Made by a program: the position numbers and the translations under genes. From positions 3,224,001 through 3,288,000 of the forward strand of contig NZ_CP058561.1 in assembly GCF_018141425.1 (NCBI RefSeq): DNA of 64,000 nucleotides. Reading direction: 5' to 3'. The notes beneath the pieces were generated by a model, which was given only the letters and a program-made list of their open reading frames with translations, searched no databases and was not told the DNA's origin. This document shows positions 2,131 through 57,030 of this stretch, in pieces. Within the stretch, counting starts at the first letter, position 1, and every line of letters starts with the position of its first letter. The stretch is from Vallitalea guaymasensis. Lineage in GTDB: Bacteria > Bacillota > Clostridia > Lachnospirales > Vallitaleaceae.

Positions 2131-2320
2131 CGAAGAAAAAGTGTTTTGTAATTACATTAATGGGTATTCCAAGCAAAATAGTATATGTATATGTGAAGTA
2201 GTGAGGCAGGACGCCGAACCCAGCTTTTTGCTCAGGACGAGCAAGTAGCTGGCGTAACATATACATATACTATTTTGCAATAACCAAGTCCGAACAAAAC
2301 TCTTTTTCTGACTTACTTGC
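2131..2320 (+). repeat. large palindromic repeat element, copy 1
   Basis: A 190-base structured element. A perfect 22-base inverted repeat (2173-2194 with 2257-2278) encloses a GC-rich core. Within the core, ACGC and CAGCT pair with AGCTG and GCGT around a TTGCTC/GAGCAA hairpin with loop AGGAC. An outer, imperfect inverted repeat pairs about 2133-2149 with 2294-2310. Copy 2 at 55243-55435 is nearly identical through the core, with one substitution seen in the 106 bases between and including the inner arms, while the flanks differ. It resembles a MITE or a mobile structured RNA. No transposase is nearby. The rest of the 2052-2454 gap holds only the exonuclease promoter. Confidence 0.85.
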
Positions 2321-2390: not shown

Positions 2391-2454
2391 ATACTAAAAA
2401 TAGTTGACTACAATTAATATACATACTGTAGCATAATGGGCAAAGGAGGACATG

Positions 2455-3270
2455 ATGAAACTAATATCTTGGAATGTTAACGGTATAAGAGCTTGTATTA
2501 AAAAAGGCTTCTTAGATTTTTTTAATGAAGTAGATGCAGATATTATGTGTTTACAAGAAACCAAAATATCTGAAGGACAAATTGAACTGGATCTTGACGG
2601 ATATTATCAATATTTTAATTATGCAGAAAAAAAAGGCTACTCCGGCACAGCTATATTCTCTAAGATGGAAGCTATATCTGTCAAAAATGGAATAGGTATT
2701 GAAGAACATGATCAAGAAGGACGAGTTATAACTGCCGAATACGATAACTTTTTCTTAGTTAATGTCTACACACCTAATTCTAAAAGAGGACTGCTTAGAC
2801 TTGATTATAGAATGCAATGGGAAGATGATTTTAGAGACTATGTTAATGAACTAGATAAAATCAAACCTGTTGTCATCTGTGGTGACTTGAATGTAGCCCA
2901 TAAAGAAATCGATCTAAAGAATCCAAAACCTAATCAAAAGAATGCAGGATTTACCATTGAAGAGAGAACTAAATTGACTAATCTACTAGAATCTGGCTTT
3001 ATAGATTCATATAGGTACTTCTATCCTGAGAAAGAAGGGGCTTACAGCTGGTGGTCATATATGTTCAACGCTAGACAGAATAATGCTGGATGGCGCTTAG
3101 ACTACTTCACTGTCTCCAATAAATTAGAAGGAAAGTTGGAGGGGGCAGATATCCTATCAGACGTATTAGGCTCAGACCATTGTCCTGTTCAGTTAGAACT
3201 TGATATTGAAGTAAACGAATCCATAAATAATAATTTTTCTGAAAAACAATTAGAATTAGATATAGTATAA
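2455..3270 (+). CDS. xth: exodeoxyribonuclease III / AP endonuclease
   Basis: 271 residues of the exonuclease III family, which cuts DNA at abasic sites and removes 3'-blocking groups in base excision repair. The full motif set is present: WNVNGIRA at the N-terminus, CLQETK with the metal-binding Glu, GYSGTAIFSK, the GDLNVAH segment, WRLDYF and the terminal GSDHCPV with the catalytic Asp-His pair. Two ATGs lie in frame at 2452 and 2455. The second is chosen because AAGGAGGA ends at 2450, giving normal spacing only to 2455, and because MKLISWNVNG is the canonical family start. It has its own promoter and a strong terminator at 3313-3380. Confidence 0.95.
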   Translation: MKLISWNVNGIRACIKKGFLDFFNEVDADIMCLQETKISEGQIELDLDGYYQYFNYAEKKGYSGTAIFSKMEAISVKNGIGIEEHDQEGRVITAEYDNFFLVNVYTPNSKRGLLRLDYRMQWEDDFRDYVNELDKIKPVVICGDLNVAHKEIDLKNPKPNQKNAGFTIEERTKLTNLLESGFIDSYRYFYPEKEGAYSWWSYMFNARQNNAGWRLDYFTVSNKLEGKLEGADILSDVLGSDHCPVQLELDIEVNESINNNFSEKQLELDIV

Positions 3271-23911: not shown

Positions 23912-25687
23912 ATGAAGAAAATTAAAAAGACCAAGTCTATTGTTTTTAAAATGTTCATTATAACATTTGTTTCTGTAATGAGTCTAATTACAGTAATTTT
24001 TCTTGTGCAAAGTTTGTTTATTAATAAATACTACAGTACCAAAAAAATAGATAATATTATAAAAAATATAAATAGCTTTAGCAAACAGTATAAAAAAGAA
24101 AAATGGAGTTTTGATGAACTAGCAAGGCAGATTAATAAGTTTGAAGGTAATAATAATGCTACTTTAACAGTTAATGGATTGAGCTATAGTGATATGCAGA
24201 TTGAAGAGTACATTCTGACATTACAAATAGCTAATAGTAATTATTATGATATTTATATTTCCAAAGAAGATTTATTAAAAGCTTTTGATGGAGAGATGCC
24301 TACCCAGTATCAAAAATTTTACTTGGAGGCAGTAATTTCTGGTACAGAAATATTGACTCCTATTAAAATAAATGATTATCAGCTGTATGATATATCAGCT
24401 GAAGAAGGTTATATTTTATTAAAAGGAAATGCTACTCTTATAAATATAAGTAATGTGATGGATAATATAACAATAGCTGCTGCTACTGCTGCTACTGGCT
24501 CAGATATACAGGTTGCAGACGGTGTAAATGTCATTGGTTTTGCAAATACTGAAGATTTGACTCTACAGTATAATAAAAAAGATGATGTGTACTACCTAAT
24601 CAATGAGATGCCATTTATTAATGTAAAACAAGTTAATTTTGTTAAAACAATAGATATGGATAACGGAAAAGAAACATCTATTAATGCTACTGCCTCATTA
24701 CAACCAGTTGGTGAGGTCATGAGTATATTAAGTGACTACTATATCATATTCTATATATTAGCTATTGTCATATCTTTGGTTATTGCTTGGATATATTCAA
24801 AATCAATTTCCAACCCCTTATTAAAATTAACAAAAGTAGCAGATAAAATGGCTGGAATGGATTTTTCAGTAAAATCTACTCATAGCAGCGACGATGAACT
24901 AGGGGTTTTATCCAATAGCCTGAATATATTATCAACCAATCTTGATGAAGCTCTAACTGATGTGAAAGAAGCCAATAAGCAACTGGTAATTGACATGGAA
25001 AAAGAAAAACAACAAGAAAAAGTCAGAAGGGAATTCGTTGCAAACATATCTCATGAACTAAAAACACCCCTTGGCATAATAAAGGGCTTTGCTGAAGGAA
25101 TAAAAGATGGCATCAAAAAGGAAAAAACAGACTATTATCTAGAAGTTATCTTGGATGAGATAGAAAAAATGAATACCCTTATACTTGATATGCTAGAACT
25201 ATCAAAATTTGAAACAGGTAAGATTGAAGATAAAGAGGAATTTGACATTATAAAATTAATCAATAAAGCAGTTACTCTCTTAGAAATACCAATAAGGGAT
25301 AAACAACTGAAAATAGATATTAAAGGTGACTTTACAAATGTATATGGTGTCAAATTTCAGATAGACCAAGTAATAATGAATCTGATTTCTAACGCTGTAA
25401 AATATTGCACCAATAATACTACCATAATCATCACAGGCGAAATCATTAATCACACTAATTATATATATATCTATAATGAAGGTAACAGTCTTACCAAAGA
25501 AGAACTGGAAAGCATTTGGCTCAGATTCTATAAAATAGATAAATCCCATAACAGACAAAGCGGAGGAACAGGACTAGGACTAGCAATCGTCAAAGCCATA
25601 CTAGATGGCCACGGAAGCGACTACGGCGTTATCAACAAACAAAAAGGAGTAGAATTCTACTTCAACATAAAAACGTCAGCCTTTTAA
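23912..25687 (+). CDS. membrane sensor histidine kinase (HAMP, HisKA, HATPase)
   Basis: 591 residues. Membrane helices lie near 11-33 and 272-295, with a 240-residue extracytoplasmic sensor between them. HAMP follows at about 296-350. The HisKA signature FVANISHELKTPLGIIKGFAEG carries the phospho-acceptor His381. The ATPase part has the N box (NLISNAVKYC) and G boxes (GGTGLGLAIVKAILDGHG). Partner of the OmpR-type regulator directly upstream. The sensor domain has no family that I recognise. The 3' end lies 75 bases from the convergent prfC, with a GTCAGCC/GGCTGAC stem (25675-25710) that lacks a T tract. Confidence 0.94.
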   Translation: MKKIKKTKSIVFKMFIITFVSVMSLITVIFLVQSLFINKYYSTKKIDNIIKNINSFSKQYKKEKWSFDELARQINKFEGNNNATLTVNGLSYSDMQIEEYILTLQIANSNYYDIYISKEDLLKAFDGEMPTQYQKFYLEAVISGTEILTPIKINDYQLYDISAEEGYILLKGNATLINISNVMDNITIAAATAATGSDIQVADGVNVIGFANTEDLTLQYNKKDDVYYLINEMPFINVKQVNFVKTIDMDNGKETSINATASLQPVGEVMSILSDYYIIFYILAIVISLVIAWIYSKSISNPLLKLTKVADKMAGMDFSVKSTHSSDDELGVLSNSLNILSTNLDEALTDVKEANKQLVIDMEKEKQQEKVRREFVANISHELKTPLGIIKGFAEGIKDGIKKEKTDYYLEVILDEIEKMNTLILDMLELSKFETGKIEDKEEFDIIKLINKAVTLLEIPIRDKQLKIDIKGDFTNVYGVKFQIDQVIMNLISNAVKYCTNNTTIIITGEIINHTNYIYIYNEGNSLTKEELESIWLRFYKIDKSHNRQSGGTGLGLAIVKAILDGHGSDYGVINKQKGVEFYFNIKTSAF

Positions 25688-25762
25688 ACACGGACGTTTA
25701 ATTGGCTGACGAATATTCCCCTATACTCTCTCTGCGACCGCTATCCACCACTATTAAAAAAC

Positions 25763-54241: not shown

Positions 54242-55060
54242 TTATTTTATAGGTATTATAATTTTTATATAATGAGCATTATCACCTTGCTCATTAACAA
54301 ACATATCCAACACATTACGTTCTATTGCATCTCCTGTGATTTCTAAATGATGTTTATCAATATAATCAAGTATTCTATCATATACAACATTAACATCCGA
54401 ATGATTAGGTTCATAAATGATTGTGTTGGCAGATACATAATAACCTTCATTCAAAACACTTAGACTATCATTCTTGGTAGGACAAGGGGACTCAGATATC
54501 AATCCGTATGCAGCATAAGTATGATAATCATTTTTTATAAGATTTTCTTTTGATAGTATTGATATAATATTTGATGTGAGAACCCAATCCTGATTGGTTT
54601 CTTTATGAATTAGTGATATGGAGTCAATATCAAGGTCGATTTCATTAGTGTGAAATGGTTTGGAAAGTACCCATAACTTAGGTAACTTCTCAATTCTTAT
54701 GTCTAGAGAATCTGATGTGAATTCACTACTATTCCAATAAAAAGATTCTATTTGAGATTTTAAATGTTTTAGATAATTAATCTTATTCTGCAAGATATTC
54801 TCCTGTTTCAATATCTCTTCTTGTATCTTGCTTATATTTTCGTGGTGTAGCAGTTGTTGAATTTTCTTGATAGGTATATCAACCGAACGAAGAAAAAGTA
54901 TAGTAGAAATCATTTCAAATTGTTCAATACTATAATACCTGTACTTATTATCTCGTATCTGCTTCGGTATTATCAGACCTATTTTTGAGTAATAACGAAG
55001 TGTATCTGTCGAAATAGAAAAAATCTTTGATATTTCACCTATGGTATAATACTCTTTCAA
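54242..55060 (-). CDS. MerR family regulator with effector-binding domain (BmrR type)
   Basis: 272 residues. The MerR winged helix is clear (YTIGEISKIFSISTDTLRYYSKIGLIIPKQIRDNKYRYYSIEQFEMISTILFLRSVDIPIKKIQQLL), followed by a coiled-coil dimer helix (about 75-110) and a GyrI/BmrR-like effector domain from about 120 to the end. It leads the GH5-GPH operon on the minus strand. Its promoter has the long 19-base spacer that MerR activators untwist. The effector is probably a glycoside or aglycone (inference). Confidence 0.88.
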   Translation of the reverse strand: MKEYYTIGEISKIFSISTDTLRYYSKIGLIIPKQIRDNKYRYYSIEQFEMISTILFLRSVDIPIKKIQQLLHHENISKIQEEILKQENILQNKINYLKHLKSQIESFYWNSSEFTSDSLDIRIEKLPKLWVLSKPFHTNEIDLDIDSISLIHKETNQDWVLTSNIISILSKENLIKNDYHTYAAYGLISESPCPTKNDSLSVLNEGYYVSANTIIYEPNHSDVNVVYDRILDYIDKHHLEITGDAIERNVLDMFVNEQGDNAHYIKIIIPIK

Positions 55061-55183: not shown

Positions 55184-55242
55184 CAAATTTCTAAGTTCTC
55201 ATTAAATATTATAAAATTTGAAATAGCCAATAGTCATATTAA

Positions 55243-55435
55243 TGAAGAAGAAAATATGTTTTGAGATAATATTGAAGGGTATTCCAAGCAAAATAGTATA
55301 TGTATATGTGGAGTAGTGAGGCAGGACGCCGAACCCAGCTTTTTGCTCAGGACGAGCAAGTAGCTGGCGTAACATATACATATACTATTTTGCAAAAGCC
55401 ACGTCGGAACAAAACATTTTTCCTGACTTACTTGC
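55243..55435 (+). repeat. large palindromic repeat element, copy 2
   Basis: Second copy of the element at 2131-2320, in the same orientation. The inner 22-base arms are 55288-55309 and 55372-55393. The core is identical apart from one base. Outer arms (about 55246-55263 with 55406-55425) match each other imperfectly. It lies between the MerR operon and the next ABC operon. The 55436-55576 and 55061-55152 parts of this gap are AT-rich and featureless. Confidence 0.85.
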
Positions 55436-55576
55436 ACTATAATTTAATCCCAAACTCTGTTTGCATATTGGTATATTTCTTAGATATTTATGTGTTATTC
55501 TTATATACTAATAGATATTAACAATAAAATCTAATTTTTGTTATAAAAGTTATGCTATTTGTATAATTTTTATCCA

Positions 55577-55653: not shown

Positions 55654-57030
55654 ATGAAAAGAAAAATTTCTTTATTCGTTGCACTAATCATGGTTGTCGC
55701 TATGTTTGCAGGTTGTGGTTCAAAAACTAAAACAACTACAGATGATGATCAAAAAAGTACAGTAGATACATCGAAATCATCTGAAGAAAAAGACAATGAG
55801 CAAGAACCAGAAATAAAAGACCAAACTCTAAAAGTATCTGTTTTTCAAGGTGGATTCGGACGTGAGTATTGGGATGAAGTAGCAAAAGCATTCGAAGCAC
55901 AAAATGAAGGCGTTACAGTAGAAGTTGTAGCTGACCCTAATATAGGTGAAAGAATCAGAAATGACATTCTATCAAATGACTCACCAGACTTTGTATTCTT
56001 ATCATCAAGAGATAAATCAGGTACAACACAATCTCTTATAAAAGATAAAGCTATTGCTGATATCAGTGATGTAATGAATAAGCTAAAAGATAAAATGATT
56101 GACGGAGTACTTGATAACTCACTTCTAAGTCCTTATGGTGATGGAAAAACATATCTTGCACCATTCAACTTCTCATCACTTGGATTATGGTACAATGAAA
56201 ATTATTTCAAAACAAATGACATTACAGCACCAGTGACATGGGATGATTTCTTTGAACTTCAAAATAAAATAACAGACAGAGCACTTATTACATATGCAGG
56301 TATCTATCCAGGATATCTTGAATCATTGGTATTCCCTGCAATCGCTTCAGGTGCAGGAAAAGATACATTTGATAAACTTGTAAAATATGATGTATCAACT
56401 TTGGACTCAGATGAATTCAAAGCAATCATGGAGAAATTCGAGAAGATAGCATCAACTAAAGCAATCATGAATGGTACAGCAGGTATCAACCATACAACAT
56501 CACAAGCAGAATTCCTTATGGGTAAAGCAGCTATGATTCCTAATGGTTCATGGATTGCTAATGAAATGAAAGATGCACCAAGAGAAGATGGATTCACATG
56601 GGGATTTGCAGCAGCACCAGTATTAAAAGCAGATAATGACAAGTATGTAGTTGCATCAATGGATGAAATGTATATACCAAGTGCATCCAAGAACAAAGAA
56701 TTAGCTAAGAAATTCTTAGAATTCCTTTATTCAGACGAAGCAATAAAAATTCAAGCTGAAAAAGCACAATCAGTTCCACCATTAAAAGGTGTAGCAGATG
56801 TAATCAAACCTTTTGTTGATGAAGCAACAGGAGCATCATATACATTATTTGATAAAGGATACAAACCATTAATCAGTAACTTTGCAGCTGTAGATAATAT
56901 GACTCTTGTTCCTAGAAAAGAATTCTTCGGTACAGTAGGTCAAGTTATAACAGGAACAAAGACTAAAGAAGAAGCTATTGATTATCTAAAACCAATTTTT
57001 GAAGAAGCAGCTAAAAATATAGTCAAATAG
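55654..57030 (+). CDS. extracellular sugar-binding lipoprotein (ABC transporter)
   Basis: 458 residues. A signal peptide ends in lipobox FAGC (Cys21) and is followed by a long Ser/Asp/Glu-rich linker. The mature part is of the family 1 solute-binding type (LKVSVFQGGFGREYWDEVAKAFEAQNEGVTVEV, FLMGKAAMIPNGSWIANEM, YIPSASKNKELAKKFLEFLYSDEAIK). An AGGAAGG site precedes the ATG. The permease pair follows after a large hairpin at 57061-57131. In its context, next to a GH112 phosphorylase, it probably binds galacto-N-biose or lacto-N-biose-type sugars (inference). Confidence 0.92.
   Translation: MKRKISLFVALIMVVAMFAGCGSKTKTTTDDDQKSTVDTSKSSEEKDNEQEPEIKDQTLKVSVFQGGFGREYWDEVAKAFEAQNEGVTVEVVADPNIGERIRNDILSNDSPDFVFLSSRDKSGTTQSLIKDKAIADISDVMNKLKDKMIDGVLDNSLLSPYGDGKTYLAPFNFSSLGLWYNENYFKTNDITAPVTWDDFFELQNKITDRALITYAGIYPGYLESLVFPAIASGAGKDTFDKLVKYDVSTLDSDEFKAIMEKFEKIASTKAIMNGTAGINHTTSQAEFLMGKAAMIPNGSWIANEMKDAPREDGFTWGFAAAPVLKADNDKYVVASMDEMYIPSASKNKELAKKFLEFLYSDEAIKIQAEKAQSVPPLKGVADVIKPFVDEATGASYTLFDKGYKPLISNFAAVDNMTLVPRKEFFGTVGQVITGTKTKEEAIDYLKPIFEEAAKNIVK

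Follow-up and report, generated by a model that had tools for sequence, protein, structure and literature searches.

A high-copy dispersed repeat of Vallitalea guaymasensis, very probably a divergent branch of the TwoAYGGAY RNA family with CsrA-site-like loops

BOX elements of Streptococcus are dispersed intergenic structured repeats with an optional central module, and REP/RAYT or MITE repeats are dispersed intergenic palindromes that differ between lineages. The element reported here resembles the former in being dispersed, intergenic, structured and provided with an optional central module, and the latter in that its dispersed intergenic palindromes also vary by lineage; unlike REP/RAYT and MITE repeats, it has conserved loops and a tandem GA that point to RNA. 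It shares GGA in hairpin loops with CsrB/CsrC and RsmX/Y/Z of gammaproteobacteria; in the available text of PMC7652899 the CsrB repeat is CAGGA(U/A/C)G, and the loop bound by RsmE is an ANGGAN hexaloop. The difference is that these sponges carry many sites per RNA (22 GGA in E. coli CsrB), whereas an element RNA would hold two, the copies being many and dispersed; besides, the host of the element has a FliW-type circuit. CsrA is a global regulator controlling motility genes; its RNA decoys are described from gammaproteobacteria, and Bacillus-type bacteria use FliW (excerpts of PMC4333381 of 2014 and PMC7652899 of 2020). If the element binds CsrA, FliW-type bacteria would also have an RNA antagonist, with its dose set by copy number.

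The RNA family relevant to the problem is TwoAYGGAY (RF01731), which is termed relatively unexplored in the available part of PMC11661157. The corresponding part of PMC4333381 already predicts it as a CsrA-binding sRNA, by motif matching, and records a tandem GA in a hairpin stem. The accessible sections of two further papers report extra covarying pairs that lengthen a TwoAYGGAY helix (PMC7657543) and two covarying pairs added to the family in Rfam 15 (PMC11701678). Rfam types RF01731 as Cis-reg, and a table entry in PMC2864571 rates the family as probably RNA and probably not cis-regulatory. The literature excerpts that mention TwoAYGGAY contain no description of it as a high-copy repeat, and literature searches brought up no title on the subject. 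The new observations concern its nature as a dispersed multi-copy repeat in Clostridia, the copy number, the exchange of a ~65-nt module and the decay of copies; with them, an orphan RNA family becomes directly testable.

The window, i.e., the whole stretch of 64,000 nucleotides analysed, holds two copies, each with a core of 106 nt (2173-2278 and 55288-55393) on the + strand. The cores differ by one mismatch and score 129.7 and 129.5 bits with the covariance model R1, which was built from 31 window-type cores only. Copy 1 is flanked by a xylose-isomerase-like gene (1287-2051) and a gene of the endonuclease/exonuclease/phosphatase family (2452-3270), which are co-directional; copy 2 lies between the divergent genes of a MerR-type regulator (54242-55060, opposite strand) and a solute-binding protein (55654-57030). 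The sequence-only reading had placed two copies with almost identical inner 106 nt at these sites, in intergenic gaps and in the same orientation, and was right in all of this. The limits that it gave to the element hold for the location; the conserved 5' tail, however, starts about 20 nt earlier, with the motif TAGCC at 2111-2115 and 55224-55228. A third match to R1 in the window (25646-25719, 16.4 bits, E 0.1) is weak and probably due to chance.

According to a conservation profile over 43-48 copies, the whole element (5' tail, rod and 3' tail) spans approximately 2096-2325 in copy 1, its outer limits being approximate; TAGCC stands mostly 15-17 nt upstream of the outer stem region. The outer stem P1 is formed by AGAAAAAGTGTTTTG (2134-2148) and CAAAACTCTTTTTCT (2295-2309), and the conserved 3' tail GACTTACTTGC follows at 2310-2320. 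The arms of stem P2, of which the 5' one has 22 nt, lie at 2173-2194 and 2257-2278. They enclose hairpin 1 (2201-2219), with the tandem GA and the CsrA-site-like loop AGGAC at 2208-2212, and hairpin 2, the tip (2220-2252), with the loop AGGAC at 2234-2238. Other copies may carry the optional module of ~65 nt at the position of the 5' arm of hairpin 2. In copy 2, also on the + strand (approximately 55205-55445), the same parts are P1 (55249-55263 and 55410-55424), P2 (55288-55309 and 55372-55393), hairpin 1 (55316-55334, loop AGGAC at 55323-55327) and hairpin 2 (55335-55367, loop AGGAC at 55349-55353).

The folding energy of copy 1, -69.2 kcal/mol, lies well below that of 200 dinucleotide shuffles (mean -37.1, sd 3.7; z -8.6). 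The predicted fold is a long rod that ends in a three-way junction. Two hairpins with identical pentaloops branch off there, GGC-AGGAC-GCC and TTGCTC-AGGAC-GAGCAA, and the fold includes a tandem GA. It departs from the single rod with a single tip proposed earlier, and the GAACC taken for a conserved internal loop is the 3' side of hairpin 1, with the tandem GA, together with the start of hairpin 2. In hairpin 1, GA faces GA both in the window copies and in the rows inspected.

The covariance model recovers relatives with altered stems and an unchanged fold. Alignment A5, in which 87 matches of several subfamilies are fitted to R1 (4 of the 31 window-type training cores among them), has changes on both sides in 35 of 39 pairs over its 86 distinct rows. 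The proportion of paired cells is 94.9%; it falls to 33.6-42.8% when the partners are slid and to 79.0% in shuffles, none of 500 reaching the observed value; these pairing figures are favoured by the fitting of A5 to the structure tested. Among the 31 window-type cores, 19 pair cells deviate from the common pair: 11 by two-sided change, 7 to G-U and 1 by loss of pairing. With few exceptions, the sequence of the two hairpin loops is CA(N)GGA(C/U)G. Of the 84 distinct copies of A5 (two module-bearing rows and one identical row being dropped from the 87), 79 have GGA in each loop, as do all 31 window-type cores, where its columns are invariant.

Non-Watson-Crick cells of the + strand in A5 comprise 35 G-U against 9 A-C, or 20 against 8 events when counted by column and subfamily (p 0.036), with two module-bearing rows, one identical row, the four outermost pairs and a pair of the tip set aside; the window-type cores give 7 against 0, with two tip pairs set aside. 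When the two strands were folded separately, the + strand was the more stable in 111 of 145 sequences from nine sets, but in just 23 of 38 window-type host sequences and 4 of 6 sequences of the most divergent set. G-U pairs were predicted more often on the + strand in only three of the nine sets; the comparison leaves aside L034, L036, L047, the module-bearing rows of other subfamilies and repeated sequences. This stability bias is partly due to shared ancestry and to the tandem GA. Overall, the earlier suggestion of selection on the structure, loops included, is well supported by the covariation, the loop conservation and the excess of G-U over A-C.

The sequence-only reading had called the element two-copy, and here the number was far too low. 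In the host genome (5.63 Mb), blastn with 190 nt gives 40 loci, besides a further set in the same-genus genome G005, and R1, with at most 150 candidates scored, gives at least 72 host loci: 28 short, 25 with the ~65-nt module, 18 of other types and one with the core deleted. Two partial copies found by blastn, four second copies beside others and three loci found with RF01731 bring the combined total to at least 81 dispersed copies, 56 of them of the window type. The search for related copies elsewhere succeeded in all six genomes examined of the genus and in two of a sister genus, i.e., R1 has matches in 8 of 22 family genomes, the host included. The counts are 13, 32, 1, 2 and 22 in the same-genus genomes G001 to G005, where opposite-strand matches can be included, and 2 and 1 in G009 and G014 of the sister genus; the remaining 14 family genomes have no R1 match at E 1e-4. 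Since an initial blastn search over 59 relatives had matched only two genomes, the host among them, the covariance model was needed to reveal the other relatives. Applied to 391 genomes of the class with the best 10 candidates of each, R1 matched the host only, which says little. More than two copies, covariation and relatives in other genomes have thus all been found, and the at least 81 host copies rule out an incidental duplication. Exact matches to a 20-nt core pattern also occur once each in a Chloroflexi MAG contig (L198) and in a Streptomyces contig (L202); R1 finds no element in the former.

As to the family, the Rfam search at the standard gathering threshold gave nothing in the window or in 12 loci of other copies. 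Seven weak matches for copy 1, RF01731 not among them, look like chance, and an RNA of the IscB/HEARO type was rejected as it has no Rfam match in the window. One copy in L090 matches RF01731 over the whole model at 27.9 bits, the gathering score being 43. A search with RF01731 itself places two host loci (2049148 and 4338008; 46.1 and 43.5 bits) and one locus of G009 (50.1 bits) above that score, and R1 finds the same three (E 2.6e-16 and 6.9e-19 in the host, 2.2e-10 in G009); 8 of the 11 listed RF01731 host loci are in the host list of R1 as well. The window copies stay below the gathering score, and these 11 loci include no window-type copy. R1, with E allowed up to 1, misses all of the 12 loci (L203-L214) taken from other Clostridia; the link between RF01731 and the window type runs via other subfamilies that R1 finds. 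Because the two models meet on the same loci, we assign the window type to TwoAYGGAY as a divergent branch.

Both have a long closing stem, a tandem GA and a three-way junction whose two hairpins bear A(Y)GGAY loops. The window type differs in its stem sequences, in the optional module and in the AGGAC pentaloops, a shortened form of the AUGGAC/ACGGAC of other subfamilies; together with the sister subfamilies it reaches at least 81 copies in the host, and the window copies score below gathering. We consider it very probable that the element is an RNA-structured, high-copy, divergent branch of this family. Of the RNA or transposase-recognised structure suggested previously, the link to TwoAYGGAY favours the RNA over a transposase alone.

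RF01731 matches at E 0.001 or below occur in 36 of the 391 class genomes, eight of which have at least seven. Nineteen genomes chosen from the positives, the host included, have 2 to 26 matches each at E 0.01 (12 in the host), and 18 of the 19 have at least one above gathering. Seven G094 copies are near identical (0.97-0.98) in the two 30-nt stretches compared. In seven G256 copies (L222-L228) the outer 30-nt arms are complementary within a copy (mean 0.86) and unrelated between copies (0.36); the origin of such copy-specific arms in a dispersed repeat is puzzling. By eye, GGA stands in both loops in 17 of 20 copies (seven from G256, seven from G094, six from G073), and the strict CA(N)GGA(C/U)G is found twice in 14 of these 20.

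The loops of the element coincide with the CsrB repeat CAGGA(U/A/C)G and with the ANGGAN hexaloop of RsmE targets. The host csrA adjoins fliW and two flagellin genes, and its product can be aligned to CsrA chains of solved structure. With the Met of MLALSRK as residue 1, it has L at 4 and R at 44; L4 and R44 are the RNA-binding residues named in the available text of PMC7652899. Both flagellin leaders have, by eye, the hairpin ATGAC-AAAGGAAG-GTCAT with a GGA loop, followed by an AAGGAGG Shine-Dalgarno sequence. We consider it somewhat probable that the element RNA would bind CsrA.

Among the 391 genomes, csrA is present in 31 of the 36 with TwoAYGGAY and in 94 of the 355 others (p 2e-12, which like the p value below is overstated owing to the kinship of the genomes compared), and flhA in 35 of 36 and 112 of 355, respectively; all 36 carry csrA, flhA or both. 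The five positive genomes without a csrA match are draft assemblies, and other members of their genera have the gene. Conversely, 94 of the 125 csrA-positive genomes have no TwoAYGGAY match among the best seven candidates scored per genome. The initially strong csrA-specific co-occurrence vanishes within flagellated (flhA-positive) genomes, where TwoAYGGAY is found in 30 of 123 with csrA and 5 of 24 without it (p 0.8); the link is therefore with the motility/CsrA block and not with csrA alone. The genome G420 has three csrA-family matches and eight TwoAYGGAY copies, the highest-scoring of those listed.

The best explanation, which we hold with evenly divided confidence, is that of a high-copy dispersed TwoAYGGAY branch whose copies may act as CsrA decoys. 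The copies would be transcribed, either alone or by read-through; the two loops of a copy, 23 nt apart in the window copies, would hold one CsrA dimer; and the summed copies, multiplying as a repeat, would titrate CsrA off targets such as the flagellin mRNAs. Taken by itself, the decoy function seems to us about equally open to acceptance and to doubt. It is tempting to go further and to propose a self-spreading CsrA sponge in motile Clostridia, with an exchangeable module and outer stems that change quickly, which titrates a global regulator by copy number and adds an RNA decoy layer to the FliW-type CsrA circuit; we regard this as doubtful.

The main weakness of the decoy reading is the variable orientation of the copies and the lack of a consistent promoter. 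Of the 55 window-type host copies compared with their neighbours, 28 share the strand of both genes, 15 are antisense to both, 8 lie between divergent and 3 between convergent genes, and one is undetermined; in G002, 22 of 34 copies are antisense to both neighbours. Since many copies are so placed, read-through would yield the wrong strand. The upstream conservation profile has no conserved promoter: an A/T-rich stretch before TAGCC is weakly conserved, and no -35 signal stands out. Promoter-like counts at the window copies are 4 and 7, where shuffles give 2.8 (sd 1.7) and 5.0 (sd 2.3), respectively, and no intrinsic terminator was found in the gap of either window copy.

A coding reading was rejected, as ORFs of at least 100 aa leave 143 of the 145 copies examined uncovered (the set comprises rows 1-100 of A3, whose remaining 14 are opposite-strand matches, and the blastn copies, with one strand of L118 omitted, and also L111, which is the same place as the copy in L102). 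The same intergenic distribution, with at least 81 host copies, would suit a non-autonomous mobile repeat (MITE-, BOX- or REP-like) of no use to the host, whose fold a trans-acting enzyme recognises as ssDNA, in the style of IS200/IS605 or REP/RAYT, or as RNA, the resemblance to CsrA sites being incidental. Such a repeat would also account for the subfamilies that differ between genomes, for the tandem copies and for the central module, which is swappable as in BOX elements, and the strand-polarised folding would equally suit an ssDNA substrate. The turnover of the element is apparent between the host (G000) and the same-genus G005, where orthologous element sites have flanks about 91-99% identical. 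In three ortholog pairs (L031/L043, L040/L044 and L052/L011) only one genome carries the module, in some the host and in some G005, and the rest of the element has changed little; both members of L022/L046 are short, and L047 has an internal deletion relative to its ortholog L041. The module also occurs within a copy of another subfamily (L098:5846-6015).

Sixteen host copies were looked up in G005 by their flanks, and five sites were informative, the others matching by one flank or none. The site of L013 is clean and empty, the only such case; that of L008 keeps both ends with the inside deleted, that of L010 lacks the core, that of L012 retains the 5' half and a piece of the module, and that of L017 retains a 3' remnant. 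Single copies thus look dispensable, being lost or decayed in a near relative, which counts against the decoy reading. The P1 arms resemble terminal inverted repeats; on the other side, the sole clean empty site permits a duplication of at most 3 bp (possibly CTA, by eye) and is no proof of transposition. A 5' truncation as a sign of retrotransposition was considered and dropped: L034 and L036 begin at similar internal points, L025 is diverged, L047 is internally deleted, and these cases are too few. We are equally divided on whether a dedicated mobile mechanism spreads the element. That it is a mobile repeat and nothing else we consider somewhat unlikely; the loop sequence and the two loop lengths closely fit CsrA sites and recur elsewhere (the 17 of 20 copies above).

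Less probable still is a cis-acting element of the flanking mRNAs, in a 3'-UTR or leader, serving as a CsrA site, an RNase III substrate or a stabiliser. It agrees with the Rfam typing and with the placement of 28 of the 55 window-type host copies, whose two neighbouring genes share the element's strand; however, the orientation to neighbours varies and differs between subfamilies, the distances to genes range from a few nt to hundreds, and the entry of PMC2864571 speaks against it. It is also conceivable, at a very low probability, that complementarity is kept without selection on RNA, by quasi-palindrome correction at the DNA level (template switching between arms). The arms are near perfect even in similar copies, and the G256 arms match within and not between copies; in the outer arms the excess of G-U over A-C is weak or absent (13 to 8 in G256, 3 to 3 in G073, 1 to 1 in G094). 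Such correction nevertheless leaves the conserved loops, the tandem GA and the one-strand G-U excess unexplained.

Several minor observations concern the copies and their surroundings. Tandem copies with repeated spacers occur in G002, as three units at L154:3001-3446 and two at L139:2846-3098. In a separate comparison (L016/L120), the orthologous site in G005 holds an inverted partial element. The stretch of about 30-40 nt immediately upstream of the 5' tail diverges more than the core or the farther flanks in L031/L043, L040/L044 and L052/L011, and not in L022/L046. A second dispersed rod-folding repeat of ~170 bp, AGACAACGGT...CCACTCTT, lies near several elements, in the upstream flanks of L002, L009 and L015 and at L098:2680-2855, L102:299-460 and L089:3368-3493; the listed pairs are 81-93% alike.
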